The notes under the pieces are model-generated. The model was not told the origin of the DNA. It saw only the letters and a program-made list of their open reading frames with translations, and did no database searches. From the NCBI GenBank assembly GCA_016931085.1, contig JAFGFO010000404.1:1-33168 (forward strand): 33,168 bases of DNA, given 5' to 3'. The stretch is from Thermoflexales bacterium. GTDB taxonomy: Bacteria; Chloroflexota; Anaerolineae; Fen-1058. This document shows positions 4,493 to 21,866 of this stretch, one piece after another (within the stretch, counting starts at the first letter, position 1; every line of letters starts with the position of its first letter). The translations under genes were made by a program, and so were the position numbers.

Positions 4493-4521
4493 GTAGAGAC
4501 GTAGCATGCTACGTCTCTACT
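4492..4521. repeat. 30-bp perfect palindrome at the cyclase stop codon
   Basis: The 15-base arm AGTAGAGACGTAGCA is followed directly by its reverse complement, with the centre between 4506 and 4507. Its GTAG foot overlaps the TAG stop of the cyclase gene (ATAGTAG on the minus strand). It has the same GTAG...CTAC ends as the palindromes at 3420-3446 and 29556-29625. Confidence 0.85.
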
Positions 4522-7500
4522 ATGCCAGCCCATCCCTATGTTGTAGGACCGGCATCTCTATACCAGCTCGCCTCAAGTCATAACCCGCGTTCAACTGCTT
4601 AAAAACCTGGCCCGCGCGGGCCAAGTGCTCTTGGCCTTTGGCGCCGCTGGTGTGTTGGGCCAGCTCGTAATGCGCCAGGCCTTGTTCGTAGGGCATCCCC
4701 AAGCGCCCGGCTGTCTCCAGGCACTTGCCCCACAGAGCTTGCGCACGGTGCGGGCGACCAGATATCTGCTCGTATAGCCCCTGCCATAGCCAGGCGCTGG
4801 GTTGGCCGATGGGAAACACGCGGGCAAATTGTCCCAAGGCCCTACAGGCTTGCTTGGCCCTGGATTTGAAATTCGATGCGGCTGCCTCCGGCTCGGCGGA
4901 CGCCCACAGGTTGAGGCAGACTTGGGCCACGTGTGAGTAAGCCAGGAGCAGTGTGTAAGAAATGGGTCGAGACTGGCTAATCAAGTCCAAAGCCGTTTCG
5001 GCGGCCCGTCCAGCCAGGTCGAGCTCTTCCTGGTAACTATAAGCCAGGGCCATTAACCCGTGAGCGTGAACCTCCTCTAAACGCCCAAGGTGTTCGGCCA
5101 GCAAAAAGTCTAACTCTGCCAAGGGGACGGTGGCCGCCCCAACTTGCCCTAGCGAGAGCATGCATCGAATTTGCCCAAGCACGCCATAAGCGCGGTATTG
5201 GACATCGCCGCGCTCGCGAGCCGAGGTGTAGAGATCGGCGAACAATCTGGCGCTTTTCGCGAAATTACCTTGGAGGTAAGTGATGGTTGCCAGGGTGTTC
5301 ATGCCTTGTTCCCAACGGCGGCGATCTCCCAACTGAGCGGATATCTCGATGGCTTCCTTGAGGGATTTTTGAGCTTCTTCCCACTGGCCGCTGCCAGCAT
5401 CGTAAACGGCGGTCAACAGCAGCACCCAGGCTAACGAGGGAAGATGGTTCACGCTGCGGGCGATCTCCCGCGCGCGGCGGCTGTAAGCTCGGGCGATGGG
5501 ATGTAGTGGAATGAGGCCAGCGGCGACACTGACGTTGGCGTGGCTTAGCGCTAGCTCTGGAGAGGGGCCGGCCGCCTCGGCCAGGTTGAGCGAGCGCAGA
5601 TTGGCGTTGATGTTCAACGTCGCCTCATTGGCGTAAAAGTAGACCTGGCCCAGCACCCAGTAGGCACGGGCCGCTTCCATCGAAACGATAGCTGCTCGTG
5701 TCTTTTCCTCGCTTGCCTGGGGGGAGCGGGCAAATCTGGCCAGCCAGGCGCGGTGCACTATTTGGCGCACGACTTGGTCCCCCAGGCTCAGGACCAGGCC
5801 CTGGCGCGAGCTTGGCGCCGCCTGGCCTAGCAGCATCAGCGCTTGCTCCAGGTGTTGGCGGCTTTCCCGCAGTTGGCCCAGGCCCAGATAAGCTTCTCCC
5901 AATTGCCGTTCCCAACGGGCTCGCTGTTCTGACAACGCCCCTGCTGACTGATCAGCGAGCTGAGGCCCTACCAGCTCGAGAGCCTGGCTGAAGAAATTGA
6001 CCGCTTCCCGGTTGGCATAGCTGTGCAGAGCTTGCTCGCCAGCTTTTTCCAGGTAAGCAATGGCTTTGGCCGGCACCTGGGCCTTGCTCCAGTGATGCGC
6101 CAGCAGGGGGTAGGACGAGCTGAGGTCGTCGGCGTAGGTGCGCTCGTACCACTCGGCCACGGCGCGGTGCAACTGCTGCCGCTGCGAAAAGAGCATCAAG
6201 TTATAGGCCACTTCCTGGGTGATGATGTGTTTGAAGGTATAGCCCAAGTCGGGCTGAGATGGGTCCAGCGGCGTGAGATCGAGCTGGCGTAGAACGTCGA
6301 GGTAATCGCCCAAGTGCTCCTTGTCGGCTTCGAGGGGATAAATGTCGCGCAGGATGCGAAAAGCAAAGGCGCGCCCGATCACACTGGCCACTTTGAGCGC
6401 CAGTTGCTGCGAGGGGGGCAGGCGATCGATGCGGCTGGTGATAATGCCCTGGACCGTGTCTGGTAAACTCAGCTCGTTCAGGTTGCCGGCGCCAGTCGCG
6501 ATGTGACATTCGCCCTCGTCGATGAGGATCAGCCCTGAATCGCGCAGGGCGTAGGCCATTTCTTCGCTGAAAAAGGGGTTGCCCTGGGCCTTGTCGCGAA
6601 TGAGAGCCGCCACCGCTTCCGGCAGTGACTTGACGCCCAACTGCTGACGCACGAGCGCCAGCGTATCTTCCAACGACAGCGCTTCCAGGTTCAGCCATTG
6701 CGCGTTGTCCGCGCTGAATAACATCTGGCAGTATTCCTCGGGTAGCGCACCGAGCAATGGCCGCGCGACAATGACCAGCAGGAGCGAGTGGCTGCCTTGG
6801 CCGATGAACAGCGTCAACAGCCACGAGGCTGAATCCATCCAATGAGCGTCTTCCAGAACGAGCAAGGTGGGTGACTGGGCAGTGGCCGTTTGCAGCAGTT
6901 GCAGCAGGAGCGTGCGCGTGTTGTCAGCCCGCACTTGCCCGTCCATCTGCCGCGTGATGTCGTTTTCCGGCAGGTCCAATGGCAGGACCGCGTTGAGCAA
7001 AGGCGCCAGGCGCATCAAGTTGGGATAAGCTTGCAGCCGCTCCAACACCCGCTTCCGGCGCTCGTCTGCGTCGGTCAGCGTGTCCAGGCTGAAGAACTGC
7101 CGGAACACGGGCCGCCAGGCGTGGTAAGGTGTAGACTTTTCGATGGCGTCTCCGGCGCCGCTCAGGGTCGGAATGCCCAGGCCCTTGGCCCGTTCGAGCA
7201 GGTCGCTGACCAGCCGCGACTTGCCGATACCGGCCTCGCCCTCGATGACGATGGTGCCCCCTTGACTGTCCTTCAGCAGTGTTTGGAGTTTGGCCTCCAA
7301 CATCGCGCGTTCTTTCGCACGCCCGACTATTGTGGACTTGTGGTCGACGGCTGTCGTCTTTGGTTGAGTGGTGTGTTTGGCGGCGGCCTCAGCCGGCGAG
7401 AGGGGACGGTAGACGGCAATGGGGTCTTTTTTACCTTTGACCGTCATGTGGGGCAGCGTCTCAAAGCCAAGCCGCGAGCAGGCGGTATGGTAGGTGGCCT

Positions 7501-8725
7501 CATCGCACAGGATGCTGTCGGGTGCGGCGACCATCAGCCGGGCCGATAGGTTGACATTGTCTCCGATCATGGCGTACTCGCGCCGCCGCTCGCTCCCTCG
7601 CCGGCCACAAAACACCCGCCCGCTGGTGATGCCGATCGCGCTGCGCAGCCCCAAACGGCCCAGCTCGGCTTGCATTTCTATGGCAGCCTGCACGCCGCGC
7701 AGCGGATCGTCTTCGTGGGTCAGCGGCGGCAGTCCGAAGGCTGCCAGCAGTGTCGTGCCTTTGTCATCCACGATGAACTGGTTGACGCTGCCTTCATAAT
7801 GGTACAGGATGGTCTGTAGATGGTGCATCACGGTTTGCATTTGCTGCAATGCATCCGGCGCTTCGAAATCGATGCCGGTCAGGTTGAGGAACACCACGGT
7901 CACGTGGCGGAGTTCGGCCAGCCAGCCGGTTTGCCCGGCGTCCAGGCGGGTCAGGATGGCGCCGGGGATATAGCCCTTGAGGGCAGTTTCCATTTCAGGC
8001 GCCAGTTTTATCGGTGCGGGTGAGCGAAGGGGAAGGGGGTTGATCACGTCCTCCAGGCGCACGCTGTTTTTCCCCACCTGCCTGTCCTTGTTGGGAATGG
8101 CGATGCCGGCGCAATTGTCACGCACAAGCTCCCAGGCTTCGGGCGACAGGACGACGTCGCCAGGTTTGGCTTGTTTGTTGGCTATACCCATTTGAACGAG
8201 CGGCTCGCCAGCTACCAGGAATTCCCATCGCCCGCGCTGGCCACCCACACTGGCTGCCAGTATCTCGCCGGCCCCGATCCCCAATCGCATGGATAGACGC
8301 ACGTCTTCTGTGGGTTCATAGTTGTGCAAGATCATTTGCAAGGCCAGGCTGGCCTGCGCGGCCCGCAAGGTGGCGGTAGCCAGGGCTTGCTCGCCATTAG
8401 AGCCTTCTGGGTTCTCACCACCAGCCGGCCACAACGCCAACGCGGCGTCACCCGCGAACTTGATGACGTCGCCGCCCAAGGTGGTCACCAGCTCGATGAG
8501 CTGCCCAAAGTAGGCATTGAGAATGATGGTCAATTCTTCCGCCCCGGATGGGCCGCGTTGGGCCATGCGTTCGGCCAGCGGCGTAAAGCCCGAGATGTCG
8601 GCAAACAGCACCGCAGCCGGGAAACGCTCGCCGTGGGGCGCCGTCAGGGGAGCGGGATTGGCAGCCAGGCGGCGCACAATCAAATTTGGCACATAACTGG
8701 CCAGTGTCTCTAGCATGATGGACAT
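4520..8725 (-). CDS. Tandem class III nucleotidyl cyclase - AAA/NB-ARC-type ATPase - TPR regulator
   Basis: This 1401-residue protein has the order C1 cyclase domain (about 35-200), C2 cyclase domain (about 270-440), P-loop ATPase (about 463-900) and a long TPR-like helical region. C1 keeps both metal-binding aspartates, D43 in FADISGF and D93 in KFAGDA, but lacks the N-x3-R transition-state pair. C2 lacks the first metal Asp (FLNLTGID) but keeps VDDKGTT (K322) and N392/R396 in GDNVNLSAR. One complete active site could therefore form between C1 and C2, as in mammalian soluble adenylyl cyclase, which has the same domain order. Walker A is GEAGIGKSR (496-504) and Walker B is LLVLEDA (621-627). 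The ATG at 8725 follows AAGGTG. The product nucleotide and signal are unknown. Confidence 0.9.
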   Translation of the reverse strand: MSIMLETLASYVPNLIVRRLAANPAPLTAPHGERFPAAVLFADISGFTPLAERMAQRGPSGAEELTIILNAYFGQLIELVTTLGGDVIKFAGDAALALWPAGGENPEGSNGEQALATATLRAAQASLALQMILHNYEPTEDVRLSMRLGIGAGEILAASVGGQRGRWEFLVAGEPLVQMGIANKQAKPGDVVLSPEAWELVRDNCAGIAIPNKDRQVGKNSVRLEDVINPLPLRSPAPIKLAPEMETALKGYIPGAILTRLDAGQTGWLAELRHVTVVFLNLTGIDFEAPDALQQMQTVMHHLQTILYHYEGSVNQFIVDDKGTTLLAAFGLPPLTHEDDPLRGVQAAIEMQAELGRLGLRSAIGITSGRVFCGRRGSERRREYAMIGDNVNLSARLMVAAPDSILCDEATYHTACSRLGFETLPHMTVKGKKDPIAVYRPLSPAEAAAKHTTQPKTTAVDHKSTIVGRAKERAMLEAKLQTLLKDSQGGTIVIEGEAGIGKSRLVSDLLERAKGLGIPTLSGAGDAIEKSTPYHAWRPVFRQFFSLDTLTDADERRKRVLERLQAYPNLMRLAPLLNAVLPLDLPENDITRQMDGQVRADNTRTLLLQLLQTATAQSPTLLVLEDAHWMDSASWLLTLFIGQGSHSLLLVIVARPLLGALPEEYCQMLFSADNAQWLNLEALSLEDTLALVRQQLGVKSLPEAVAALIRDKAQGNPFFSEEMAYALRDSGLILIDEGECHIATGAGNLNELSLPDTVQGIITSRIDRLPPSQQLALKVASVIGRAFAFRILRDIYPLEADKEHLGDYLDVLRQLDLTPLDPSQPDLGYTFKHIITQEVAYNLMLFSQRQQLHRAVAEWYERTYADDLSSSYPLLAHHWSKAQVPAKAIAYLEKAGEQALHSYANREAVNFFSQALELVGPQLADQSAGALSEQRARWERQLGEAYLGLGQLRESRQHLEQALMLLGQAAPSSRQGLVLSLGDQVVRQIVHRAWLARFARSPQASEEKTRAAIVSMEAARAYWVLGQVYFYANEATLNINANLRSLNLAEAAGPSPELALSHANVSVAAGLIPLHPIARAYSRRAREIARSVNHLPSLAWVLLLTAVYDAGSGQWEEAQKSLKEAIEISAQLGDRRRWEQGMNTLATITYLQGNFAKSARLFADLYTSARERGDVQYRAYGVLGQIRCMLSLGQVGAATVPLAELDFLLAEHLGRLEEVHAHGLMALAYSYQEELDLAGRAAETALDLISQSRPISYTLLLAYSHVAQVCLNLWASAEPEAAASNFKSRAKQACRALGQFARVFPIGQPSAWLWQGLYEQISGRPHRAQALWGKCLETAGRLGMPYEQGLAHYELAQHTSGAKGQEHLARAGQVFKQLNAGYDLRRAGIEMPVLQHRDGLA

Positions 8726-9791: not shown

Positions 9792-10747
9792 AACTTGAGC
9801 CCACTTTTATCGTTCGCGATATCCCGATCTACGGCGATCTGATCCTGGCCCCCATGGCTGGCTTTTCGGACCAGCCCTACCGCCGGCTGTGCCGCGAGTT
9901 CGGCTCGGCTGTGTCTTGCACCGAGTTTGTCCTCGACACCAGTCTCTCTTACGGCAGCCGGCGCTCTGAGCAAATATTGAGCTTTGACCCCATTGAAAGG
10001 CCGGTGTCGGTCCAAATCTTTGGCCGAGACGAAGATACGCTGGAGCAGGCCGCCCGCCAGGTGGAGCAGTTGGGCGTGGATATCGTGGACCTGAACCTGG
10101 GCTGCTCGGTGCCCAAGGTGCTCAAGCGCGGCGCCGGCGCCTGCCTGCTCCAAGATCCGGCCAGGATCGGGCGCATTATGGCTCGGCTTTGCCGCACGCT
10201 GTCCGCGCCGGTCACCGCCAAGATGCGGCTGGGTTGGGACGAGAGCTCACTCAACTACCTGGAGGTGGCCAAGATATTGGAGGATAACGGCGCTGCGTTA
10301 ATCGCCGTCCACGGGCGGACGCAGTCACAGAATTACGACAGCCCGGCCAACTGGGACGCCATTGCCGAGGTCAAGCAGGCTGCCCACGTCCCCGTTATCG
10401 GCAACGGCGACGTGGTACGCGTGGCCGATATCGAGCGCATCAAGCGCCACACCGGCTGCGATGGGGTGATGATCGCCCGCGCGGCGATTGGCAATCCGTG
10501 GATCTTTCAGCGCCGGGATCTGGAGCAGGTGCCGCTGGGCGAGAGGGTGGCGGTGATGGGCCGCCACCTGGACTTGATGGTCGACTTTTACGGCGATGAG
10601 TGGGGGGCGCTCCGCTTTCGCAAGCACGTTGCGAAATACATACGCAGCGTGCCTGACGCCGCCAGGTGGAGGCACCAACTGATGGCTTGCACCTGCCGCC
10701 AGGAGTTTATGGCGATCCTGTCCTCGATGGCGCAAGCGGCTCAATAA
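9788..10747 (+). CDS. dus: tRNA-dihydrouridine synthase
   Basis: This 319-residue FMN-dependent enzyme reduces uridines in the tRNA D-loop. The N-terminal APMAGFSDQPYRRLC (about 21-35) is the Dus signature. LNLGCSVPK carries the probable catalytic Cys106, although the usual GCP is GCS here. AKMRLGWD (about 144-151) and the phosphate-binding IGNGDV and MIARAAIGNPWIF segments follow. ATG 9788 overlaps the hydrolase stop as ATGA, which indicates translational coupling. A frame open further upstream lies inside the hydrolase and lacks Dus features. The 3' end overlaps that of convergent deoC by seven bases. Confidence 0.93.
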   Translation: MKLEPTFIVRDIPIYGDLILAPMAGFSDQPYRRLCREFGSAVSCTEFVLDTSLSYGSRRSEQILSFDPIERPVSVQIFGRDEDTLEQAARQVEQLGVDIVDLNLGCSVPKVLKRGAGACLLQDPARIGRIMARLCRTLSAPVTAKMRLGWDESSLNYLEVAKILEDNGAALIAVHGRTQSQNYDSPANWDAIAEVKQAAHVPVIGNGDVVRVADIERIKRHTGCDGVMIARAAIGNPWIFQRRDLEQVPLGERVAVMGRHLDLMVDFYGDEWGALRFRKHVAKYIRSVPDAARWRHQLMACTCRQEFMAILSSMAQAAQ

Positions 10748-11472
10748 CCGCCCGATGCGCTCGTTTTGGCGCTGAGCGCCGTTATGGCCGGCAGCCCCAG
10801 GCGCTGCCGACATTCGTCAAGGATGGCCGCCGTCCCGGAGGCCCCGGCGCGGCTCGCGCCCAGGGCGCGCATTTCAAGCAGTTGGTCCAGCGTGCGCACG
10901 CCGCCGGCCGCCTTGACCTGGATGTGGGCCGGTGTGTGCCGGCGCATCAACTCCACGTCTTTGGGCGTGGCCCCACCTGTGCCGTAGCCGGTCGAAGTCT
11001 TGACCCAGTCGGCCCTCAGTTCGCTGCAAATCTCACACAAGCGGATCTTGTGCTCGTCACTCAGATAGCAGTTTTCGAAAATGACCTTGACCTTTTGCTC
11101 ACGGGCGTGGGTCACGTCGACGACGGCCTCGATGTCGTTTCGCACATAGTCCCACTGGCCGCTGAGGACCTGGCTGATGTTGACCACCATGTCCAGCTCT
11201 TGGCCGCCATCAGCCAACGCTTGTTGGGCCTCGGCGACCTTGGCCGCCGTCGTATGCCCTCCGTGGGGAAAGCCGATCGTCGTGCTGGCTTTGACCGTGC
11301 TGCCGGCCAGGATCTCGGCGCAGCGCTTGAGGAAGTATGGCATGAGGCATACACTGGCTACGTCATAAGCCAACGCCAGCCGGCAGCCTTTTTCCAAATC
11401 CTCGACTGTTGTGGTGGGATTCAACAGCGAATGATCGATCATCTTGGCGATTTGTGTGTAGGTATAGTCCAT
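10741..11472 (-). CDS. deoC: Deoxyribose-phosphate aldolase
   Basis: DeoC splits 2-deoxyribose-5-phosphate into glyceraldehyde-3-phosphate and acetaldehyde in deoxynucleoside catabolism. The 243-residue TIM barrel has Asp94 in ELDMVVNIS, the Schiff-base Lys158 in WVKTSTGYGTGGAT, and the second Lys187 in VKAAGGVRT. All match the catalytic residues of the family. GAGAGG precedes the ATG at 11472, and a promoter lies upstream. It is convergent with dus, and their coding ends overlap, so there is no room for an intergenic terminator. Confidence 0.95.
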   Translation of the reverse strand: MDYTYTQIAKMIDHSLLNPTTTVEDLEKGCRLALAYDVASVCLMPYFLKRCAEILAGSTVKASTTIGFPHGGHTTAAKVAEAQQALADGGQELDMVVNISQVLSGQWDYVRNDIEAVVDVTHAREQKVKVIFENCYLSDEHKIRLCEICSELRADWVKTSTGYGTGGATPKDVELMRRHTPAHIQVKAAGGVRTLDQLLEMRALGASRAGASGTAAILDECRQRLGLPAITALSAKTSASGGY

Positions 11473-11551: not shown

Positions 11552-12457
11552 CTACTCGAACTCCTCGGATTCTTCGTCGGGGTAGAAGAGGAACATGTCC
11601 TCCCTACGCAAGCCCTGTTCATCGGTGGCGAGCATCTGCCGCTCCCGCTGCTCCCGCATGCAGATGGCAGACTGCTCCATCGCCCGCAGCCGGTCGATGA
11701 TCCCGCGCTCGCGCAGCAGAGCTTTTCCGTCCGCGAAGAGCTTCCCGCTGCCGTATAGCAAGACCGCCTCGTCCAATATCTTGCATGCCACCATCCGCTG
11801 GAAGGTGTCGAACTCGGCCTGTTCGCACAACTTGCTAAAACGCTTGACGATGTAGTCGATCTCCTCACGGAAGGCCGGATGCTTGAGGTACTGGTACTTC
11901 TTCCGGTAGATGGCGTCATCCAGTTGGTTGACTAGTTCGCCAGGCGCCTCGTCGCTTACGATCACCACGATGTCCAGGTCGGAGCCATGCACCATCTTGC
12001 CGGTGCTGCGCTCCGGTCGATTCACATCGTGTGCCATCTCGTAGACGATGTCGCCGGCCACGACTACACAGAACGGATTCTCCTCTTCGCCGCCAGCGGT
12101 GAACGGTGCAGCAATGTCAGTCATGATACGCGTTGCCAGTTCTAGCTTTTTCCGGCTGACGCCCTTGATATGAGCCTCGAGTTCCTTCTGCCACAGGTCC
12201 ATCGCGGCGGGATCGTCCGCGAGCCCCACCACCGTGTATGTGAGAAACTCCCTCAGGATGGATGGAGATAAGCGAGCGTAGCCATCGACCCGCCGGTCGA
12301 GCCTGACGTAGCGCCGTCCTACCCTGCGAATCGCCAGCCGGGGCGACAGCATGCACGTCTTCCACAACGCGAACCTCTCGCCGCCTAGTGCCTTATGGAT
12401 CTCGGCGCCCGTCCGCGGCCCTGTCTGTTCTAGCAGGTCGATGATTCGCTCCTGCAT
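11552..12457 (-). CDS. Winged-helix plus nucleotidyltransferase-fold protein
   Basis: This 301-residue protein starts with a winged-helix-like segment (about 1-60, with IIDLLEQTGPRTGAEIHKAL). It continues into a nucleotidyltransferase-like core. HGSDLDIVVIV at 157-167 matches the GS-x-DxD metal-binding motif of the DNA polymerase beta-type fold, followed by a helical tail ending in an acidic DEESEEFE. The family transfers nucleotides to proteins, RNA or small molecules, and I cannot say which here. Its ATG lies nine bases after the nagB-like stop, so it is the last gene of a compact operon. An antitoxin or toxin role is possible but unsupported. Confidence 0.65.
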   Translation of the reverse strand: MQERIIDLLEQTGPRTGAEIHKALGGERFALWKTCMLSPRLAIRRVGRRYVRLDRRVDGYARLSPSILREFLTYTVVGLADDPAAMDLWQKELEAHIKGVSRKKLELATRIMTDIAAPFTAGGEEENPFCVVVAGDIVYEMAHDVNRPERSTGKMVHGSDLDIVVIVSDEAPGELVNQLDDAIYRKKYQYLKHPAFREEIDYIVKRFSKLCEQAEFDTFQRMVACKILDEAVLLYGSGKLFADGKALLRERGIIDRLRAMEQSAICMREQRERQMLATDEQGLRREDMFLFYPDEESEEFE

Positions 12458-12466
12458 CCGGTCCTC

Positions 12467-13489
12467 CTAGCACACGCAGCCGGTGTTCGGGTCACGGCTA
12501 AATGCCAGGTCCGACACCCGCTTGCAGGGTTGGTCGCGCACGTCAACGATCTCGTACCCTCGGGCCTCGACCTCGGACCGGCGAGCCAGTAATTCCGCGG
12601 CAGCCGGCTCGTCGAGGACGTAGACCAGTGTGCCGCCCTTGTCCACGAATGTCTGGCCGTAAGAGACCGGGACGTCACAGGTGACGGGGCCCAGGACGGA
12701 TTCGCAGATCGGGCCGGTCTTGCGGGCACCGTTAGCGAGCAGGACGACGGTTCGCGCCTGATAGACCAGTTCTGCACCCATGGAGATGGCGTATCGCGGG
12801 CTCTCTTCGATGGCCGCAAAGTGCCCGTCGACGACGGCGTTCTCCACGGTGTTGTCGTCCAGTTTCACGAGCAGCACGGGGTAGGCGTCGAAGGGGATCC
12901 CGCTCTCGTGGAAGGCTACGTGACCTCGGCCGCCGACGCCGATCACGTGCAGGTCGATGCCGCCGAAGGATGCGATCTTGTTCGCGTACGCGTCCAGGAT
13001 CTCCTCCTTGACCAGGCGCAAGACGCCCTTGGCGTGGTCCTTGACGACGACTGCCTTACCCTTGTCTGTCCCCCGCATCTCGTAGTAGTCTGGGTATCGC
13101 TCAAGCGCCTCGATCAGTTCCGCTTGATCCACCAGCGTCCCCCACGGCACGTTTGTCTCGCGGAACTTGCGCTTCAAGAAGGCGAACAGCTCGGACACCA
13201 TAAAGTAGCTGTACGACTCTGGGTGGAGCGCGCGTTGCTGGGCGTTCTCCCCGGGGAGGCCCACGTACTCGTCCAGGTTGAACGAGCGGACCCGGCTCGA
13301 GTCGATCCGGCCGGCATTGAACGCCTTGGCCAGGTGTTTGTAAAGCCCGGTGGGCGAGTTGCCCGTTGCCAGGCCGAGCACGTATTTGTCCTTGACTGAC
13401 TGCTTCTCGCGAATGTCGGCCTCGACGAGGTCGGCGGCCACCTTGCTCATTTGGTCAAAGTCGCGTGTGACATAGATTGTGAAAGACAT
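12467..13489 (-). CDS. nagB: NagB-family (glucosamine-6-phosphate deaminase-like) protein, divergent
   Basis: This 340-residue protein has the NagB fold signatures LATGNSPTGLY (about 40-50), FNLDEYVGL with Asp73, and GVGGRGHVAFHESG (about 184-197). Canonical NagB is about 240-270 residues, and most of the extra length is an insert near 105-165. In E. coli the equivalent of the last motif reads GxDGHIAFNE, or GxNGH in some Firmicutes. Here the Asp/Asn position is Arg188, while His190 and Glu195 remain. Deamination of GlcN6P is therefore uncertain, and a related sugar-phosphate isomerase reaction is possible. The ATG at 13489 follows the grpB-family stop by one base. Confidence 0.75.
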   Translation of the reverse strand: MSFTIYVTRDFDQMSKVAADLVEADIREKQSVKDKYVLGLATGNSPTGLYKHLAKAFNAGRIDSSRVRSFNLDEYVGLPGENAQQRALHPESYSYFMVSELFAFLKRKFRETNVPWGTLVDQAELIEALERYPDYYEMRGTDKGKAVVVKDHAKGVLRLVKEEILDAYANKIASFGGIDLHVIGVGGRGHVAFHESGIPFDAYPVLLVKLDDNTVENAVVDGHFAAIEESPRYAISMGAELVYQARTVVLLANGARKTGPICESVLGPVTCDVPVSYGQTFVDKGGTLVYVLDEPAAAELLARRSEVEARGYEIVDVRDQPCKRVSDLAFSRDPNTGCVC

Positions 13490-13490
13490 C

Positions 13491-14075
13491 TCATTTACTC
13501 TTGTTCAGTTGATTCCAATTGATAGCTTTTCCACTGCAGCGTGTATTCTCCTCGTCTGACCTGGCCAAGCACAGGATGCGCTCGATGAAGGCGGCTTTCC
13601 CGTCGGTGTAGGCCCCCCGGTCGCGGGGGAATCGCTCGGCCAACGCCAGCTTGAGGGCCGTGTACTCCTCGACGGCGGCCGGGTGCTTGCGCATGTAATC
13701 CCGAAACAGGATGTGATTCCCCCAGGCCGGATTGCTCTCCTCAAACATGTGCACGTGATGGGTCGTGTCTGGGACCCTTTTCACAAAATAGTGCCGGCGC
13801 GGTATCCCGTTTTCGCCTCCGTACTCGTAGCCCAGCCGCTCCATGGGGCCCACGCACACAAAGGCGCCCTCGAAACTCTCGACGGCTATTCCGATGTCGA
13901 TGATCGGCTTGGCCACGCCGCCGGGGATGGAGGTGCTCCCTATGGGCTGGATGTCCAGGACATAAGCGCCCACAGCCGCCTGCAGGCGTGCCTTCTCCTC
14001 TTCGAAGAGGCGTGGCCAGCCGGGGTGATAGGAAACCAACCTGACGACGTCTCTTTCCAGGCCGATGATGGTCAT
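13491..14075 (-). CDS. GrpB family (UPF0157) nucleotidyltransferase-fold protein
   Basis: This 194-residue protein begins with VRLVSYHPGWPRLFEEEKARL and carries IGSTSIPGGVAKPIIDIGI (about 45-63), the hallmark of the GrpB/UPF0157 family. GSTS with the following Asp60 resembles the nucleotidyltransferase-fold active site. RRHYFVKRVPDTTHHVHMF follows. The family is widespread but its substrate is not established. The gene is sandwiched in an operon with one-base gaps to a 45-residue ORF upstream and to the NagB homologue downstream. The last 20 or so residues are polar and probably dispensable. Confidence 0.88.
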   Translation of the reverse strand: MTIIGLERDVVRLVSYHPGWPRLFEEEKARLQAAVGAYVLDIQPIGSTSIPGGVAKPIIDIGIAVESFEGAFVCVGPMERLGYEYGGENGIPRRHYFVKRVPDTTHHVHMFEESNPAWGNHILFRDYMRKHPAAVEEYTALKLALAERFPRDRGAYTDGKAAFIERILCLARSDEENTRCSGKAINWNQLNKSK

Positions 14076-14076
14076 T

Positions 14077-14214
14077 TTACAGTTGATAGCTCACGATGCG
14101 GTGCGCACGCTGCACCATCTTGAAAGCCCCGGCCAGTTTGTAAGCCAGGCGATACCCCAAGTTGAGGCGGATGCTACGGAATATGCCGAGTGGCGACGAG
14201 TGATTATGTTTCAT
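14077..14214 (-). CDS. Small basic 45-residue ORF, translationally coupled on both sides
   Basis: The ORF starts at ATG 14214, which overlaps the aminotransferase stop as TAATG. It ends with TAA at 14077-14079, one base before the grpB-family ATG. The peptide begins MKHNHSSPLGIF and ends RAHRIVSYQL. It is rich in Arg, Lys and His with an amphipathic pattern in its centre (LGYRLAYKLAGAFKMV). No known family is recognised. The double coupling at exact gene junctions argues for real translation, either of a functional small protein or of a coupling leader for grpB. A chance frame bridging the gap exactly is possible but less likely. Confidence 0.6.
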   Translation of the reverse strand: MKHNHSSPLGIFRSIRLNLGYRLAYKLAGAFKMVQRAHRIVSYQL

Positions 14215-15374
14215 TATACCAGGAAATAATCACCTGCAATCCTCAGAATGGCCCCACCACCAAAGCTGCTCAAGCAAGCTCCGACACGCTCCAACGCCTC
14301 GCCAAGATTTTTCCGCCCCAGGCCCAGCCGGAAGTGATTGCCCGGAAAATCAAAAAGGCTCCCCGGCACGATCATTACGCTCTGCTGTTCCAGCACGGCC
14401 TGGCAAAATTGCTCCACCGAGATATCGCCTGTCCAGCGCGGGAAAGTGATTGGACCGGCTTGAGGCTCGATCCAGGCAAGCCAGTCGGCGTGTTCTGCAA
14501 AGAACCGCTCGGCGATTTTTAGATTCCCCTGAATGATGCCGAGGTTGCGAGCCACGATGCCTTCTTTGGCCCGCAGCGCCATGATGCCCAGAATCTCACT
14601 CGGCGCGCTATGGCAAATGGTCGTATAGTCCTTGAAGGTCAGCCAACGTTCCAGCAATGCTCGTTCTTGTGTGGCAAGCCAACCCAGGCGCAGCCCCGGC
14701 AAGGCAAAAGACTTGGACAAACCCGACAGGGAAATCCCTTTCTCATATAGATCGCACATCGCCGGCAGGCGGCGGGCCGGGTCATATTCCAGAAAGCGGT
14801 ACATCTCATCGCAAAAGATATACAGACCGCGCTTGCGGGCCGCTTCCACGATTGAATCCAATTCTGAGCGAGACGGCAAGTAGCCGGTAGGGTTGTGGGG
14901 AAAGTTGAGGACGAGCAGCCGTGTGTGGTCGGTGAGCAAGCCCTCTAAATGATCCAGGTCAAGCCGCCAACCACTCGGGCCTAACTCGAATGTCCAGGGT
15001 GTCACCTCGCAGCCGATCGCACGCGCGATTTCGTATAGAGACTGGTAGGCGGGAAAGACAGAGACAATATGATCGCCAGGCTTGAGCAGCGTGTGCATGG
15101 CGATGAAAATCGCTTCTTCAGGCGCTGCAATCATCACATGATCAGCATCGATGGTTTGGTAGAGGCAGGCCGCTTCGGCCCTCAAGAGTGGATGCCCCGG
15201 CGACTCGGTGTACCCCAATCTTAGCTCATTCCATAGCGATAGACTTGCCGGGTCGGCCATTTGCAATAGTTCACTCATCGGCATGCTTTCGCAATCTGAG
15301 GGGCTGAGCAAATACTTGACGTTGAACTCGTAGCGGGCGAAATATCGCTCCAGCTTGAAAGGATTGATCTGCAT
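14214..15374 (-). CDS. Class I/II PLP-dependent aminotransferase
   Basis: This 386-residue fold-type I aminotransferase has FPAYQSLYEIARAIG, LNFPHNPTGYL (cofactor/substrate Asn), FCDEMYRF (Asp to the pyridine nitrogen) and the Schiff-base Lys221 in SGLSKSFALPGLRLGW. The substrate is not obvious. It resembles the broad MalY/AspC-like group rather than a specific biosynthetic branch. I chose ATG 15374, preceded by GGGAG five bases away. A TTG at 15386 would add four residues but lacks a ribosome-binding site. It lies downstream of the GMP-synthetase-like gene and a secreted-protein remnant, and overlaps the small ORF that follows. Confidence 0.9.
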   Translation of the reverse strand: MQINPFKLERYFARYEFNVKYLLSPSDCESMPMSELLQMADPASLSLWNELRLGYTESPGHPLLRAEAACLYQTIDADHVMIAAPEEAIFIAMHTLLKPGDHIVSVFPAYQSLYEIARAIGCEVTPWTFELGPSGWRLDLDHLEGLLTDHTRLLVLNFPHNPTGYLPSRSELDSIVEAARKRGLYIFCDEMYRFLEYDPARRLPAMCDLYEKGISLSGLSKSFALPGLRLGWLATQERALLERWLTFKDYTTICHSAPSEILGIMALRAKEGIVARNLGIIQGNLKIAERFFAEHADWLAWIEPQAGPITFPRWTGDISVEQFCQAVLEQQSVMIVPGSLFDFPGNHFRLGLGRKNLGEALERVGACLSSFGGGAILRIAGDYFLV

Positions 15375-15397
15375 AGAGTCTCCCAAAGCAAGTATTG

Positions 15398-15609
15398 TCA
15401 GTTTCTCAAGGCCAGCGGCAGGTAGAGGTGAAATCCATAGTACTCGTCGGCGCCGATGTCGTAGCCTGCCCCGGCTGGCCGCCCCTGCCCACCGATGTCC
15501 ACGCTGACGCCGGCGTTCGCGCCGCGATTGGGGTGGGGTCGCCGGCCACCAAGACCGGCAACACCAACACGAGCGCGATCAGCCAACGTGAGAATGTGCG
15601 CACGTTCAA
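15398..15609 (-). pseudogene. Remnant of a secreted repeat protein (signal peptide joined out of frame to C-terminal motif)
   Basis: AGGAGG precedes a TTG at 15609 that encodes MNVRTFSRWLIALVLVLPV, a clear signal peptide ending near VLVAG. About 30 codons on, that frame turns into nonsense. A second frame (15586-15398) carries GGQGRPAGAGYDIGADEYYG and then HLYLPLALRN before its stop. I know DIGADE-type endings from secreted parallel beta-helix (choice-of-anchor Q) proteins, and LYLPL-type tails from Chloroflexi exported proteins. The simplest reading is an internal deletion with a frameshift, leaving only the export signal and the C-terminal tail. It lies between two intact operon genes. Confidence 0.55.
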
Positions 15610-15628
15610 GTTGACCTCCTGTGACTTG

Positions 15629-16591
15629 TTACACGGCTTCAATCGTCGACGGCGGCTTGGGCGCTATGTTGTAGGTGACGCTGACGACACCGGGCACCGC
15701 CTGGACGATCTCCTGCGCCAGTTGCTCGAGGAGCTCGAACGGGAGCCGGGTAGGGGTGGCCGTGCGCGCATCCACGCTGTCCCAGCAGCGCACTTCGATC
15801 TGCTGGCCGAAAGCGCGCCGGCCGTGCCGCATTCCCGTCACCCGGTCTTGGTGCAAGATGGCCAGGTATTGAAAGGCGCCGCAGCCCGCCAGCAGCCGCT
15901 CAACCACCTGCGTGACCTGCCGGACCGTCTCGATGCGCTCCGGCGTTGCCTCGCCGATCACGCGGGCGGCCAGCGCTGGCCCCGGAAAGGGGATGCGCTG
16001 GAACAGCTTGTGGGGTAGCCCAAGCGCCTGCCCCAGCTTTCTCACGCCGTCCTTGCGCAATTGGATGAGCGGCTCCAGGATACGGTAGCCAAACGCCGCC
16101 TGCGGGTCAATCCCCAACTGCTCGAAGACATTGTGCTGCCGCTTGATCCCGGCAACGGTCTCGTCCACGTCGGTCAAGATCGTCCCCTGGAGCAGATACT
16201 TGGCCCCGCTCTCGCGGACGAGACGGCCAAAGACGTGGCGGTAGAAGGTTTGCGTGATGGCCTCGCGCTTCGCTTCGGGGTCCGTCACACCCTTGAGTGC
16301 CGCAAAAAACTCGGCCCGCGCGTCGACGACCTCGACCGTGACGCCGAGGGCGCGGAAAAAGCCGGTGACCTGCTCGGCTTCGCCCGCGCGCATGAGGCCG
16401 TTTTCGATGAACACCGTCTTCAGGCGCTCACCCAAAGCGCGATGCCCCAGCAGCGTGACCGTGGACGAATCGACACCGCCCGAGAGGGCATTGATGGCCC
16501 ACCCCTCCCCCACGGCGCGCCGGATCTCTTTTACCTTCTCGTCGATAAAACGCTCCGTGTCGAGCTCTTGCGCCCTGATCTCTGCAATCAT
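15629..16591 (-). CDS. guaA: GMP synthase-like ATP pyrophosphatase (synthetase domain only)
   Basis: This 320-residue protein corresponds to the synthetase half of GuaA, as in the archaeal GuaAB subunit. It lacks a glutamine amidotransferase domain, and none is visible in the window. The ATP-PPase P-loop SGGVDSS is at 37-43. LLQGTILTDVDET, PFPGPALAARVIGEATPE and the KPPSTIE tail follow the GuaA order. Canonical segments are altered: the HHNVGGLP region reads QHNVFEQL, the MGDGR segment MRHGR, and the terminal TIEWE becomes TIEAV. It may be an ammonia-dependent paralogue acting on another nucleotide. AAGGAGAAGGG precedes the ATG at 16591, overlapping the upstream stop region. Confidence 0.8.
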   Translation of the reverse strand: MIAEIRAQELDTERFIDEKVKEIRRAVGEGWAINALSGGVDSSTVTLLGHRALGERLKTVFIENGLMRAGEAEQVTGFFRALGVTVEVVDARAEFFAALKGVTDPEAKREAITQTFYRHVFGRLVRESGAKYLLQGTILTDVDETVAGIKRQHNVFEQLGIDPQAAFGYRILEPLIQLRKDGVRKLGQALGLPHKLFQRIPFPGPALAARVIGEATPERIETVRQVTQVVERLLAGCGAFQYLAILHQDRVTGMRHGRRAFGQQIEVRCWDSVDARTATPTRLPFELLEQLAQEIVQAVPGVVSVTYNIAPKPPSTIEAV

Positions 16592-16603
16592 GTACCCTTC
16601 TCC

Positions 16604-18022
16604 TTATGGTGTGATCCTCCCCTCGCTCGGTGCACCGAGGGGGGAGTATTTGGCGACGTATTCTTCCATCACTTCTGGCACGATGGTCGGCACTTCATAC
16701 TCAACCTGCTGATCTGGAACCACCAGGTAATTCAAGATCTCGGAAAATTCCAGGTCGGTCGCCGCGACAACGTATTTGCGCTCCGCCTGGAGCGGCTCGC
16801 CGCCAATCCGTACTTCGACCGGCTCGAATGATTCGGGATCGTACCTGACCCACATGCCGGCCACGTGTGGCATGCCCACCGGGACCCCTCGCAGCGGCCG
16901 GAGCGTGCGGGCGGCATTGTCTGGCTTGAGCGCCTGGCGTAGGAACTGGCGGATTTGTTCGCCGCTCAGCTCGGCCCGCGCCGGGTTGCCCGTCGAGCGC
17001 AGGGCGCTGTTGAGCGCGCCAAGCGTCAGCGGCCCGGCGTCGAGGCCGGTCGTCCAATGGCAAACCATCGCCAACGCCACGTGTGCCCCCTTGACTCGAT
17101 CCAGTAGTATATCGGCCAGTAAATTGCCGGCCGCGCACTGCCGGTCGTCGGCCTTGTCGATTGGGGCGCGCAGCTCGCCGATCACGCGCTGCATCATCTG
17201 CTGCATTCTTTCACGTTCGGTTTCGAGCGCCGCCACGGTTTCGGGCTCGGGCGGGATGTCTTCGCCGACTGGGATCAGCTCGCCGGTGTGTCCAGTGATT
17301 TTGCCTGTTGTGGGGTCTATCTCCAAATCGAGCCGTCCCAGGAATTGCCCATAGTCGCCAGCTTGCGCGATCACCACGCCATTCACAACCAGTGGTGGGG
17401 ACAGCTTGAGGTGATCGTGCCCGCCGATAATCAGGTCGAGGCCACTGACCTGCTCGGCCAACATCTTGTCTTTGGGTGATCCCAGGTGCGACAACAGCGC
17501 CACGGTCTGAGCGCCGCGTGAGCGGGCCTGCGCGATAAGGCCGGGCAGCACGCTCAGCGGATTGCCCAGGGTGATTGTGTCGAAGAAAGAGTAAAATGGC
17601 ATCGGGTCGGTCAACCCGATGACGCCGAGCTTGAGATCGCCAAAGGTCTGAACGGTGTAGGGCTCAAGCCCGGCTACAGGCTGGCCGGTGGCCGCGTCCA
17701 GCATGTTCGCGCCCAGCAGGGGGCGCCCGAAGCGCTCGGCCAGGTTCCCAATCGCCTGCGGCCCGTAGCGTAATGGCGTGGCATTGCCCAACACGGCCAG
17801 GTCGTAGCCGGCGCTGCGCAGCACCGCCATCATCGCGCCGCCTTTGGTCGCGCTGCTTTCCAGCCATATCGTGTCTTCGGCGTCGCCGCCATCCCATACG
17901 GTGCAGTACCCGCCTGCCGTTTCAACCTCGCCCCGAATCCGCTTGACGAGCGTGGCAATGCGGGATAACGGTTCAACGCGCGCGTGGATATCATTGGTGT
18001 GCAAAATGGTCAGGTGAATCAT
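16604..18022 (-). CDS. UshA-type 5'-nucleotidase/metallophosphoesterase homologue lacking the catalytic His
   Basis: The 472-residue protein has an N-terminal calcineurin-like metallophosphoesterase domain and a C-terminal 5'-nucleotidase substrate domain. Metal ligands are visible in HTNDIHARVEP (Asp11, His13), DGGDAEDT (Asp47), Asn80, SHLG (His179) and GGHDHL (His202, His204). The usual GNHEFD motif is GNATPLRYG, so Asn is kept but the catalytic His and Asp of UshA-type enzymes are absent. No signal peptide is present, unlike periplasmic UshA, so it should act in the cytoplasm. The C-terminal domain keeps AAGNLLAD and YVVAATDL segments. It is the first gene of a long minus-strand run and has a good promoter. 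Confidence 0.85.
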   Translation of the reverse strand: MIHLTILHTNDIHARVEPLSRIATLVKRIRGEVETAGGYCTVWDGGDAEDTIWLESSATKGGAMMAVLRSAGYDLAVLGNATPLRYGPQAIGNLAERFGRPLLGANMLDAATGQPVAGLEPYTVQTFGDLKLGVIGLTDPMPFYSFFDTITLGNPLSVLPGLIAQARSRGAQTVALLSHLGSPKDKMLAEQVSGLDLIIGGHDHLKLSPPLVVNGVVIAQAGDYGQFLGRLDLEIDPTTGKITGHTGELIPVGEDIPPEPETVAALETERERMQQMMQRVIGELRAPIDKADDRQCAAGNLLADILLDRVKGAHVALAMVCHWTTGLDAGPLTLGALNSALRSTGNPARAELSGEQIRQFLRQALKPDNAARTLRPLRGVPVGMPHVAGMWVRYDPESFEPVEVRIGGEPLQAERKYVVAATDLEFSEILNYLVVPDQQVEYEVPTIVPEVMEEYVAKYSPLGAPSEGRITP

Positions 18023-18074: not shown

Positions 18075-18103
18075 ACTATATCACACTGGCAGCGAATTGT
18101 AAA
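18075..18103 (-). promoter_or_regulatory. Predicted promoter of the long minus-strand operon
   Basis: On the minus strand TTTACA (18103-18098) and TATAGT (18080-18075) are separated by 17 bases. The -35 box overlaps that of the divergent plus-strand promoter. AGGAG lies 11 bases before the ATG at 18022. Confidence 0.6.
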
Positions 18104-18140: not shown

Positions 18141-18814
18141 ATGAATCTTGCACAAGACCACTCGACACTCTATGAGAACCTCGCCGATTTGCAGGAACAA
18201 TCCCTGACGCTGATCGCGTTTTTCGTTGGATCGCTTGCCTATGCCTGCTTCCTATGGGTAAACTGGGTCCAACTCACAGGGCCCGCACATGTGGTTGCCT
18301 CGATTGGCATAGGGCTATTGGTTCTAGCTGCCCTCGGCAGTCACCTACTGAAACAATCCCACCTGCGGATCGCTACCCATCTGCTGGTCTGGCCTGTCTT
18401 GGGCGCTAACGTCTGTGCGGTCTTTGTGTTTGCGGCCCCCGAGATGGCCTACCTCTTCATCCTGCCGATTATCTTTGCCAGTGTGCTCCTCAGCCGGCCG
18501 GCTCACCTTGTGGTAGCCGTCGCATCTGGCTCATTCTGATCGTTGTTCACCGAGGTCGAGCCTGACTTGCCCCCCTTGAGGATGTGACCTTTGCTGTGAC
18601 AGACACCGGCGTAGGGATTGCGCCCAAAGACATTCCCCACATCTTTGAAGAGTTCCGGCAAGCTGATGGCAGCCTGCGGCGGCGTCAAGGCGGGGCCGGG
18701 TTGGGCTTGGCCATCAGCCAGCGCTTTGTGGCGCTGCACGGCGGTCGAATGTGGGTGGAAAGCCAGGTTGGCCAGGGAAGCACCTTGGTACCAAATACAA
18801 GCCAGATGAATTGA
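18141..18814 (+). pseudogene. Decayed membrane sensor histidine kinase
   Basis: The first part (18141-18539) encodes 132 residues with a short cytosolic start and four or five hydrophobic segments (for example IGIGLLVLAALGSHLL and YLFILPIIFASVLL), then stops at TGA. A second frame (18584-18814) encodes the end of a HATPase_c domain: [10 protein letters not shown] (G1 box), IFEEFRQ (F box) and [10 protein letters not shown] (G2 box), with the usual HGGRMWVES. The dimerisation/phospho-acceptor helix and the N box are missing. This looks like one kinase gene with a large internal deletion, and the two pieces would not give a working kinase. The C-terminal end is also atypical. Confidence 0.7.
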
Positions 18815-19551: not shown

Positions 19552-20613
19552 ATGGGCGGCGACCACGCCCCCGGCGTGGTGATCGACGGCGCAGTGCTGG
19601 CTGCCCGCGAACTTGGCCCCTCCGGCGTGGAGATCGTCCTGGTTGGGCGCGAGGCCGACATCCGGCGCGAATTGGCCCGCCATCAGACCCAAGGCCTGCC
19701 TATCTCGGTCGTCCACGCTGACCAGGTGATCGAGATGGAAGAGCATACGGCTGCCGTCAGGGAGAAAAAGGACTCCTCGATGGTTGTGGGCGTGCGCATG
19801 GTCCGCGATGGGCAAGCCTCTGCGTTCGTGAGCGCCGGCAATTCCGGCGCGGCGATGGCGGCGGCCCTGTTTGGGCTGGGCCGCATTCGAGGCATCGATC
19901 GCCCGGCGTTGGCTGGCATTTACCCGGCCGCCCCCACACCGTGTGTGCTGATCGACATAGGCGTCAATACCGACCCCAAGCTGGATAACCTGGTGCAAAA
20001 CGCGCTGATGGGCTCGGTCTATGCCGAGCGCGTGATGGGCATCGCTCACCCGCGCGTGGGCCTGGTCTCGAACGGCGAAGAGGCCGACAAGGGCAGCGCG
20101 TTGGTGCGAGACGCCTACAAGGTGCTGGCAGCCAGCCATTTGAACTTTGTGGGCAATGTCGAGGGCAAAGATATCTGCCGCGGCCTGACCGACGTGGTTG
20201 TGACCGACGGCTTTGTGGGCAATGTCATCGTCAAGCTGTCGGAAGGGTTGGTGTCGTTCCTGGCTCGTTACCTCAAGCGCGAGCTGAGCAACGGCGTACG
20301 TAACGTACTGGCGTGGGTCTTGATGCTGCCCGGCTTGCTGCTGATGCTGCCCGGCTTGCTGCTGATGTCGCCGACTTTCAGGCAAATCGCGCGTCGTGTC
20401 GATTACGCCGAGTATGGTGGCTCGCTGCTGCTGGGGGTAAATGGTGTTGTCGTCGTCGGCCATGGCCGCAGCAACGCCAAGGCGATTAAAAACGCCGTGC
20501 GAGTGGCCGCTCAATGTGTGCAAGAAAGAGTGCTTGACTCGATCAAGCAAGGCATTGCCGATATACAGACTGGCGTGCAGTCTGATATGCAGAAAGGAGA
20601 AGAAAACACATGA
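19552..20613 (+). CDS. plsX: Phosphate acyltransferase PlsX, start displaced
   Basis: PlsX makes acyl-phosphate from acyl-ACP for phosphatidic acid synthesis at the membrane surface. MGGDHAPGVVIDGAV, SAGNSGAAMAAALFGLGRI, LIDIGVNTD and TDGFVGNVIVKLSEG are family signatures. Normal PlsX begins MKIVLDAMGGDHAP. Here KIVLDA is encoded upstream of ATG 19552, but the initiator Met is missing and the frame continues back into repeat DNA to a stop at 19438. AAGGGAGG at 19456-19463 lies seven bases before an in-frame ATC (19471). Either ATG 19552 is used, losing strand 1, or a rare codon starts a longer form. Near the C-terminus LMLPGLL is duplicated. fabF overlaps as ATGA. Confidence 0.88.
   Translation: MGGDHAPGVVIDGAVLAARELGPSGVEIVLVGREADIRRELARHQTQGLPISVVHADQVIEMEEHTAAVREKKDSSMVVGVRMVRDGQASAFVSAGNSGAAMAAALFGLGRIRGIDRPALAGIYPAAPTPCVLIDIGVNTDPKLDNLVQNALMGSVYAERVMGIAHPRVGLVSNGEEADKGSALVRDAYKVLAASHLNFVGNVEGKDICRGLTDVVVTDGFVGNVIVKLSEGLVSFLARYLKRELSNGVRNVLAWVLMLPGLLLMLPGLLLMSPTFRQIARRVDYAEYGGSLLLGVNGVVVVGHGRSNAKAIKNAVRVAAQCVQERVLDSIKQGIADIQTGVQSDMQKGEENT
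20320..20361 (+). repeat. 21-bp tandem duplication inside plsX
   Basis: Two adjacent 21-base units (20320-20340, 20341-20361) differ only at the first base and encode LMLPGLL twice. The duplication is in frame and lengthens a hydrophobic helix near the C-terminus. Confidence 0.85.
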
Positions 20614-21866
20614 GAACAGATCGGTCGGACAAACAACGTGTAGTGGTGACTGGCATGGGTGCCATCACGCCATTGGGCTTGACGGTCCCAGAACTGTGGG
20701 ATGGCCTGGTCAACGGGCGCTCGGGCATCGCACCTGTCACATTTTTCGATGCCAGCACCTTCTCCTCGCGAATTTCCGGCGAGGTGAAGGGCTTCGACCC
20801 GGCCGCTTACATGAATCGCAAGGGGGCGCGCCGCATTGCGCGCTGTTCCCAGTTGGCCATCGCTGCCTTGCAAGAGCTGAGGGCTGATGCGGGGCTGCCG
20901 TCGCGCTTCGAGGACGGCGTGCGCGTTGGGGTGCTCCTCGGCTCGGCGTTGGGAGGCTTCGAGTCTGGAGTGAATGAATGTATTACCTTGCGCTCGTCCG
21001 GCTGGGAGCGAGTCAGCCCATTCTTGTCTATCGCTTGTCTGCCTAATATGCCGGCCCATCACGTCAGCATGGAGTTGGGCGCCAAAGGGCCTAATTCCAC
21101 GGTCGTCACAGCCTGCGCCAGCGGCACGCAGGCGATCGGCGAGGCCTCCGAAGTCATCCGGCGCGGCGCGGCCGATATGATGATCAGCGGCGGCGTGGAT
21201 GCGCTGGTTTGCGATTTTGCACAGGGTGCTTTTTGCGCCATGCGTGTCCTTTCGACTCGTAACGAGGAGCCTGAAAAGGCCAGCCGCCCGTTCGACAAGA
21301 ACCGCGACGGTTTTATCCTTTCCGAGGGCTGTGGCCTGGTGGTGTTGGAGAGCCTCGATCACGCCAGGCAACGTGGCGCGCGCATTTACGCCGAAGTGCT
21401 GGGCCAGGCCGCGTCTTGCGACGCCTATCACGTCGCCGCACCAGATCCCGGCGGCGAGGGAGCCTCGAACGCGATGCGCTGGGCGATGCAGGATGCCGGC
21501 ATAAGCCCAGACGAGGTGGATTACATCAATGCGCACGGCCCCGGTACCCCCCAGGGCGACTCGGTTGAAACCCTGGCGATCAAGAACGTGTTGGGCCAGC
21601 GAGCTTATTCGGTGCCTGTCAGCTCGACCAAGTCCATGATCGGCCACTGCATGGGCGGCGCCGGCGCCATCGAGGCTATCGCGTGTATCTCGACCATCCA
21701 TCACGGCGTCATCCATCCGACGATCAACTTCGAAACGCCTGACCCGGCCTGCGACCTAGATTACGTGACGGAGGGCGCTCGCAAGCAAGAGGTGCGCGTG
21801 GTGATGTCCAATTCGTTCGGCCTGGGTGGACAGAACGCTTGCCTCGTGCTGGGGCGCATGGAGTAG
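20610..21866 (+). CDS. fabF: 3-oxoacyl-ACP synthase II (KAS II)
   Basis: FabF condenses malonyl-ACP with acyl-ACP in fatty-acid elongation. The 418-residue thiolase-fold protein has VVVTGMGAITPLG at the N-terminus, the nucleophile Cys169 in TACASGTQAIG, His309 in NAHGPGTPQGD, Lys341 in SSTKSMIGH and His346. The usual NAHGTSTPxND reads NAHGPGTPQGD, a departure around an intact His. SNSFGLGGQNACLVL closes the protein. ATG 20610 overlaps the plsX stop by four bases, so the two are coupled for lipid synthesis. Confidence 0.94.
   Translation: MRTDRSDKQRVVVTGMGAITPLGLTVPELWDGLVNGRSGIAPVTFFDASTFSSRISGEVKGFDPAAYMNRKGARRIARCSQLAIAALQELRADAGLPSRFEDGVRVGVLLGSALGGFESGVNECITLRSSGWERVSPFLSIACLPNMPAHHVSMELGAKGPNSTVVTACASGTQAIGEASEVIRRGAADMMISGGVDALVCDFAQGAFCAMRVLSTRNEEPEKASRPFDKNRDGFILSEGCGLVVLESLDHARQRGARIYAEVLGQAASCDAYHVAAPDPGGEGASNAMRWAMQDAGISPDEVDYINAHGPGTPQGDSVETLAIKNVLGQRAYSVPVSSTKSMIGHCMGGAGAIEAIACISTIHHGVIHPTINFETPDPACDLDYVTEGARKQEVRVVMSNSFGLGGQNACLVLGRME

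Follow-up and report, generated by a model that had tools for sequence, protein, structure and literature searches.

The contig JAFGFO010000404.1 of a Thermoflexales bacterium (Chloroflexota; assembly GCA_016931085.1), which is 33,168 nucleotides long and in its whole length is referred to here as the window, carries a run of seven open reading frames (ORFs) on the minus strand between positions 11,552 and 18,022. An earlier note on this DNA had read the run as one compact operon encoding a candidate undescribed pathway; the seven ORFs do lie where it had placed them. Families were assigned with Pfam and NCBIfam profiles. Given in gene order and followed by two promoter-like sites, the features are:

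16604–18022, minus strand: UshA/SoxB-like phosphoesterase, of a subfamily without the His of the GNHE motif; no signal peptide by eye
15629–16591, minus strand: GuaA-like protein (320 amino acids), a paralogue of the guanosine monophosphate (GMP) synthetase ATP pyrophosphatase without amidotransferase
15398–15609, minus strand: remnant of an exported-protein gene, seen in three-frame translation and sequence
14214–15386, minus strand: aminotransferase of fold-type I, with the ATG at 15374 as likely start
14077–14214, minus strand: 45-residue ORF, unsupported by any match
13491–14075, minus strand: GrpB-family protein (194 amino acids; PF04229, E 1.8e-49; solved relative 2nrk)
12467–13489, minus strand: NagB-like protein (340 amino acids), Arg188 at the position of E. 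coli Asp141, ~40 extra residues before position 165
11552–12457, minus strand: winged-helix protein with a Pol-beta-type nucleotidyltransferase domain (301 amino acids), of no family in the searched libraries
10741–11472, minus strand: deoC (TIGR00126, above cutoff), 79 bases after the nucleotidyltransferase gene
18075–18103, minus strand: promoter-like site, 10/12 match, at chance level
11549–11520, minus strand: promoter-like match TTGGCA-18-TATAAT, 11/12, before deoC, the best of three

The NagB-like protein and the winged-helix nucleotidyltransferase form a conserved pair in distant bacteria. Their match lists had 21 contigs in common; the corresponding numbers with the GuaA-like protein were 4 and 3 (shared contigs were inferred from indirect fingerprints, with the best 120 matches per search). 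The neighborhoods of 16 loci were surveyed, 10 of them obtained with the nucleotidyltransferase as query and 6 with the NagB-like protein. Among the former, NagB was present in seven, the phosphomutase GlmM in seven, and either in nine; among the latter, four had the nucleotidyltransferase as a neighbor and all six had GlmM beside NagB. The arrangements, where LbH denotes a GlmU-C-like gene and NagB(Arg) the form with Arg at the Asp141 position, were:

LbH, GlmM, NagB(Arg), nucleotidyltransferase: L106, L107, L108, L110
LbH, GlmM, NagB(Arg): L109
GlmM, NagB(Arg), contig end: L111
LbH, GlmM, nucleotidyltransferase: L093, L094
LbH, GlmM, nucleotidyltransferase, with convergent canonical NagB and YvcK: L096–L099
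GlmM, nucleotidyltransferase, with convergent NagB, on a 3-kb contig: L089
YvcK, NagB, nucleotidyltransferase: L095
NagB, nucleotidyltransferase: L083
nucleotidyltransferase alone: L084

SASHNP, presumably the phosphomutase motif, occurred in 12 of the 13 GlmM-bearing loci and was absent from L098, where GlmM (TIGR01455, 594 bits), YvcK (TIGR01826, 368 bits), and NagB (285 bits) all passed their profiles; GlmM of L109 passed as well (572 bits). The GlmU-C-like genes matched GlmU in part (44 bits in L109; 137 bits in L098, of the archaeal type), and Pfam recognized hexapeptide repeats in that of L098 and nothing in that of L109. In all five loci from L095 to L099, YvcK/GlmR lay beside canonical NagB, the family being confirmed for L098.

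The window's NagB-like protein has the NagB fold and scores 144.2 bits against TIGR00502, under the curated 236.9. In an alignment of 24 of the 120 listed proteins with the window's own (25 rows), Asp73, His190, and Glu195, the equivalents of E. coli Asp72, His143, and Glu148, were invariant, and Arg188 proved to be a family trait. In the E. coli enzyme we take Asp72 and Asp141 to have catalytic roles. The earlier note had described an Arg at a catalytic Asp, and the replacement itself stands. The Asp141 position also varies among genuine NagB proteins, being Asn in S. mutans NagB (2ri0) and in three of the seven canonical NagB of related clusters. The roles of His143 and Glu148 are covered in PMC4008608. 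Six genomes carry the Arg form, and because no canonical NagB over the curated cutoff was found in them, this form may serve as their NagB.

In the nucleotidyltransferase, Asp160, Asp162, and Asp201 (DxD...D) were invariant among 41 of the 120 listed proteins and the window's own; this is presumably the catalytic triad, assigned by motif. A structure model, examined by VIA structure comparison beside Foldseek, gave the catalytic core a Pol-beta-type fold. In a tree of 25 nucleotidyltransferases, those beside Arg-form NagB separated from those beside canonical NagB, with 10 of the 15 Arg-form labels resting on indirect contig fingerprint matching.

NagB and GlmM share glucosamine 6-phosphate (GlcN-6-P): NagB links it with fructose 6-phosphate, and GlmM directs it to UDP-N-acetylglucosamine (UDP-GlcNAc) and the cell wall. 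As the pair occurs in clusters with a GlmU-C-like gene and GlmM and, in a sister version, with canonical NagB and YvcK/GlmR, it most likely constitutes a module acting at the GlcN-6-P branch point. In B. subtilis, YvcK/GlmR favors flow into UDP-GlcNAc (PMC6171935). The stretch is best explained as mostly unrelated genes assembled in this lineage, holding this one real module, an explanation to which, taken as a whole, we assign a probability of roughly 0.6. It builds on gene presence and order, retained residues, folds by model, and partner-matched clades, from which regulation is inferred.

Gene neighbors, the intact putative active site, and the winged helix suggest that the nucleotidyltransferase could regulate the GlcN-6-P node. 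It might do so by nucleotidylating NagB or GlmM, much as GlnE acts on glutamine synthetase, or the winged helix might couple the node to transcription. That the modification is covalent and directs GlcN-6-P either into central metabolism or into UDP-GlcNAc for the cell wall is a tentative proposal by analogy, to be regarded as unlikely in this specific form. No description of such a nucleotidyltransferase in a UDP-GlcNAc gene setting, or of a GlnE-like switch for amino sugars, was found in open-licence PMC texts.

Several observations weigh against a branch-point module. The window holds the pair and none of GlmM, the GlmU-C-like gene, or YvcK. The pair is broken in both directions, with the NagB-like protein lacking the nucleotidyltransferase in L109 and L111 and the nucleotidyltransferase standing with GlmM and without the NagB-like protein in L093 and L094; in L084, neither NagB nor GlmM is present. 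In L089 and L095–L099, NagB and the nucleotidyltransferase are convergent and not on one transcript. Nor are the loci independent: in the tree, L083 pairs closely with L084, and L093 with L094. Foldseek gave no match for the whole nucleotidyltransferase model at E 0.001 or better. The protein was found in none of 350 genomes of the phylum of G001 and in none of six further genomes, in searches run with no positive control, which suggests that few members of the phylum presumed for the window carry it; G006 likewise gave no match. Its putative GlnE-like nucleotidylylation of a protein target is drawn from gene neighbors. Finally, GlmS scored above cutoff in 16 of 19 genomes, including four of the six Arg-form genomes, and did not in G1020 and G358 (possibly incomplete); because GlmS co-exists, the pair is no general substitute for it, and the NagB-like protein as a general GlmS replacement is unsupported.

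The nucleotidyltransferase might instead modify a small molecule, transferring a nucleotide onto an amino sugar or its phosphate as aminoglycoside nucleotidyltransferases do. This is doubtful: the structure matches span the catalytic core alone at 9–15% identity, the protein-modifying enzymes DrrA and GlnE are themselves among them with scores of 11.0 and 8.4, and the winged helix would be left unexplained. Similarly improbable is that the Arg form of NagB is a sugar-phosphate sensor and no enzyme, with the winged-helix nucleotidyltransferase as its DNA-binding or output partner. The exchange at Asp141, which might speak for it, falls at a position variable in genuine NagB, and a pure sensor would not need Asp73, His190, and Glu195, all of which are invariant in the 25 rows.

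The other genes of the run bear on the reading that all seven proteins share an unusual substrate and make up a single undescribed pathway. The GuaA-like protein, as the earlier note had correctly seen, has no amidotransferase and ends in ...TIEAV instead of ...TIEWE. It scores 290.8 bits against the GMP synthetase profile TIGR00884, under the cutoff of 338.75. A search in which 8,000 candidates were scored gave, among the 120 best listed, the window protein and 119 others at 83–93% identity. In one scan of GTDB contigs, 449 relatives were confirmed. The best 80 loci, whose high identity (78–88%) is partly due to selection because they are the best 80 of 449, span at least 15 phyla as read from their records. 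When the neighboring ORFs of these 80 loci were clustered, the GuaA-like cluster itself comprised 71 loci (window included; simple ORF caller) and the next clusters eight (antisense to the GuaA-like gene in the representative L036) and five, so that no neighbor recurred beyond a few of the 80 loci. The other window proteins, compared with the same loci by tblastn, gave a single match, to the aminotransferase in L044 at 25% identity.

The GuaA profile was applied to 20 genomes drawn from the 80. Each of the 20 gave the paralogue, and canonical GuaA scored above cutoff in 18 (one of them partial, in G1239), G358 and G1232 being those without it. For G1232, a chromosome-level Phycisphaerales genome holding L043, the paralogue was the only GuaA found. 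Three of the six genomes with Arg-form NagB (G356, G357, and G358) also encode the GuaA-like paralogue, on other contigs.

Compared with canonical GuaA proteins of 10 such genomes, the paralogue, aligned in 200 rows, differs at fixed positions. The first His of the lid motif IK(T/S)HHN was Gln in all 200 rows, Arg at position 304 was Ser in 198, and the terminal Trp-Glu was mostly Ala-Val/Ile, the last residue being Val, Ile, or Leu in 198 rows and a gap in 2. In contrast, Arg109, Asp141, Glu144, Lys150, His153, and Arg259 were kept in all 200 rows and Lys312, Thr316, and Glu318 in 198 or 199. A GMP-synthetase review (PMC10526850) links equivalents of these kept residues to adenylation and to binding of xanthosine monophosphate (XMP), because of which adenylation of a nucleotide by the GuaA-like protein is likely. 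In 45 of 45 genome pairs (genomes picked by paralogue similarity), the two paralogues resembled each other more closely than did the two canonical GuaA proteins, with means of 79.0% and 62.5%. From its sequence, the GuaA-like protein is probably an independent paralogue that still adenylates a 5′-phosphate nucleotide, using free or supplied ammonia, and the base or acceptor of its reaction may differ from that of GMP synthetase. Its database names include "ExsB family transcriptional regulator" and "GMP synthase"; in the open-licence PMC literature and the records found, no reaction is assigned to it, and the PMC texts gave no paper on the former name and nothing relevant on GuaA paralogues.

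The aminotransferase and the phosphoesterase were compared (relatives at E 1e-60) with 298 genomes from the class to which G006 belongs. G006 holds L078, and its FabF, at 58% identity, is the closest among 20 genomes to that of the window (20610–21866), with others at 55%, which places the window roughly. Relatives of the aminotransferase occurred in 54 of the 298 genomes, the best at 73% identity; its nearest models (PRK07324, GntC, and capreomycidine synthase) all remained under cutoff. Relatives of the phosphoesterase occurred in 18. The missing catalytic His reported by the earlier note is real, GNAT replacing the GNHE of 5′-nucleotidases, and the His is absent in 18 of 18 relatives, other metal-site motifs being largely kept; it is therefore an old trait of this subfamily and not part of a drift from housekeeping residues shared by the operon. 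Against the SoxB profile TIGR04486, the phosphoesterase scores 141.5 bits (cutoff 550). No other window protein was matched in 12 aminotransferase loci (of the 54 genomes; at most ~8 kb on each side, often less) or in the 10 best phosphoesterase loci (of 18).

The same strand and short gaps between most genes speak for a single pathway. In gene order from the phosphoesterase to the nucleotidyltransferase, the gaps measure 12, 242, −1, 1, 1, and 9 bases, a correction to the described spacing of mostly 0–12 bases. The 242-base gap between the GuaA-like and aminotransferase genes contains a ribosome-binding sequence followed by a signal-peptide-like start, and a C-terminal tail (...DIGADEYYGFHLYLPLALRN) that is in a different frame: it holds the scar of an exported-protein gene, which divides the run. 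The earlier note had looked to a conserved neighborhood with at least four of the families; at most two occurred in any examined locus, be it among the 80 GuaA-like, 12 aminotransferase, 10 phosphoesterase, or 16 NagB-like/nucleotidyltransferase loci, many of which stop early at contig ends. That the GuaA-like, NagB-like, phosphoesterase, and aminotransferase proteins are altered enzymes holds insofar as all four fall under curated cutoffs; a joint substrate is not supported, and with neighbors that do not recur and a run divided by a remnant, one pathway for all seven is very improbable. Least likely of all is a replacement of the uridylyltransferase half of GlmU by the nucleotidyltransferase: the clusters do have a GlmU-C-like gene beside GlmM, but all 16 genomes tested encode elsewhere a GlmU domain of the uridylyltransferase type (at least 250 bits, covering the profile from position 2 or 3 to ~240 or beyond), which rules the replacement out for them.

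As for the remaining features, a GGGAG ribosome site makes ATG 15374 the probable start of the aminotransferase. The promoter that had been placed at 18075–18103 exists as a site, in a region whose number of such sites (three) is within the expectation from shuffled sequence (2.3 ± 1.6). With the same reservation, the promoter-like match before deoC suggests that this gene is a separate unit. The 45-residue ORF gave no family match in profile searches and no tblastn match in the searched loci, where a query this short can escape detection. GrpB is co-located with the NagB-like/nucleotidyltransferase pair, with no evidence of membership in it. PADLOC matched no defense system among the seven window proteins. 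Divergent from the run, 18141–18814 (plus strand) resembles by eye a sensor-kinase remnant, with membrane N-terminal and HATPase-like C-terminal parts in two frames, which may reflect an internal deletion or an assembly join; 4520–8725 (minus strand) encodes a 1401-residue protein matching adenylate cyclase, AAA, and TPR.

The supposed seven-enzyme pathway thus gives way to two sharper targets, the NagB/nucleotidyltransferase/GlmM cluster and the GMP-synthetase paralogue. The former points to an unrecognized way for environmental bacteria to control their UDP-GlcNAc supply.

Compared with known systems, the phosphoesterase shares the Metallophosphoesterase (match just below cutoff) and C-terminal domains with UshA/SoxB, from which it differs by the replaced GNHE His and, in the window protein, by the lack of a signal peptide (by eye). 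In 10 genomes, the GuaA-like protein is 41–47% identical to the canonical GuaA encoded alongside it. It keeps the equivalents, at hand-counted positions, of PfGMPS Asp371, Glu374, Lys386, and His389 and of MjATPPase Arg102, Arg249, Lys302, and Glu308 (roles from PMC10526850). It departs from the ATP-pyrophosphatase subunit of GMP synthetase (GuaAb; 2dpl, 6jp9) in having Gln for His388, Ser for Arg294, and Val/Ile for Glu310, and, unlike GuaAb, this protein without amidotransferase is an extra copy beside canonical GuaA. The NagB-like protein differs from NagB (TIGR00502; 2ri0, 1dea) by Arg for Asp141, FHES for FNEP, and ~40 extra residues, and is 28–32% identical to NagB of the sister clusters. 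The nucleotidyltransferase has its catalytic core fold and DxD...D triad in common with ANT(4''), GlnE, DrrA, and MntA, and distant relatives of the pair adjoin GlmM, the GlmU-C-like gene, and YvcK, counterparts of the GlmS-GlmM-GlmU/YvcK(GlmR) genes for UDP-GlcNAc supply.

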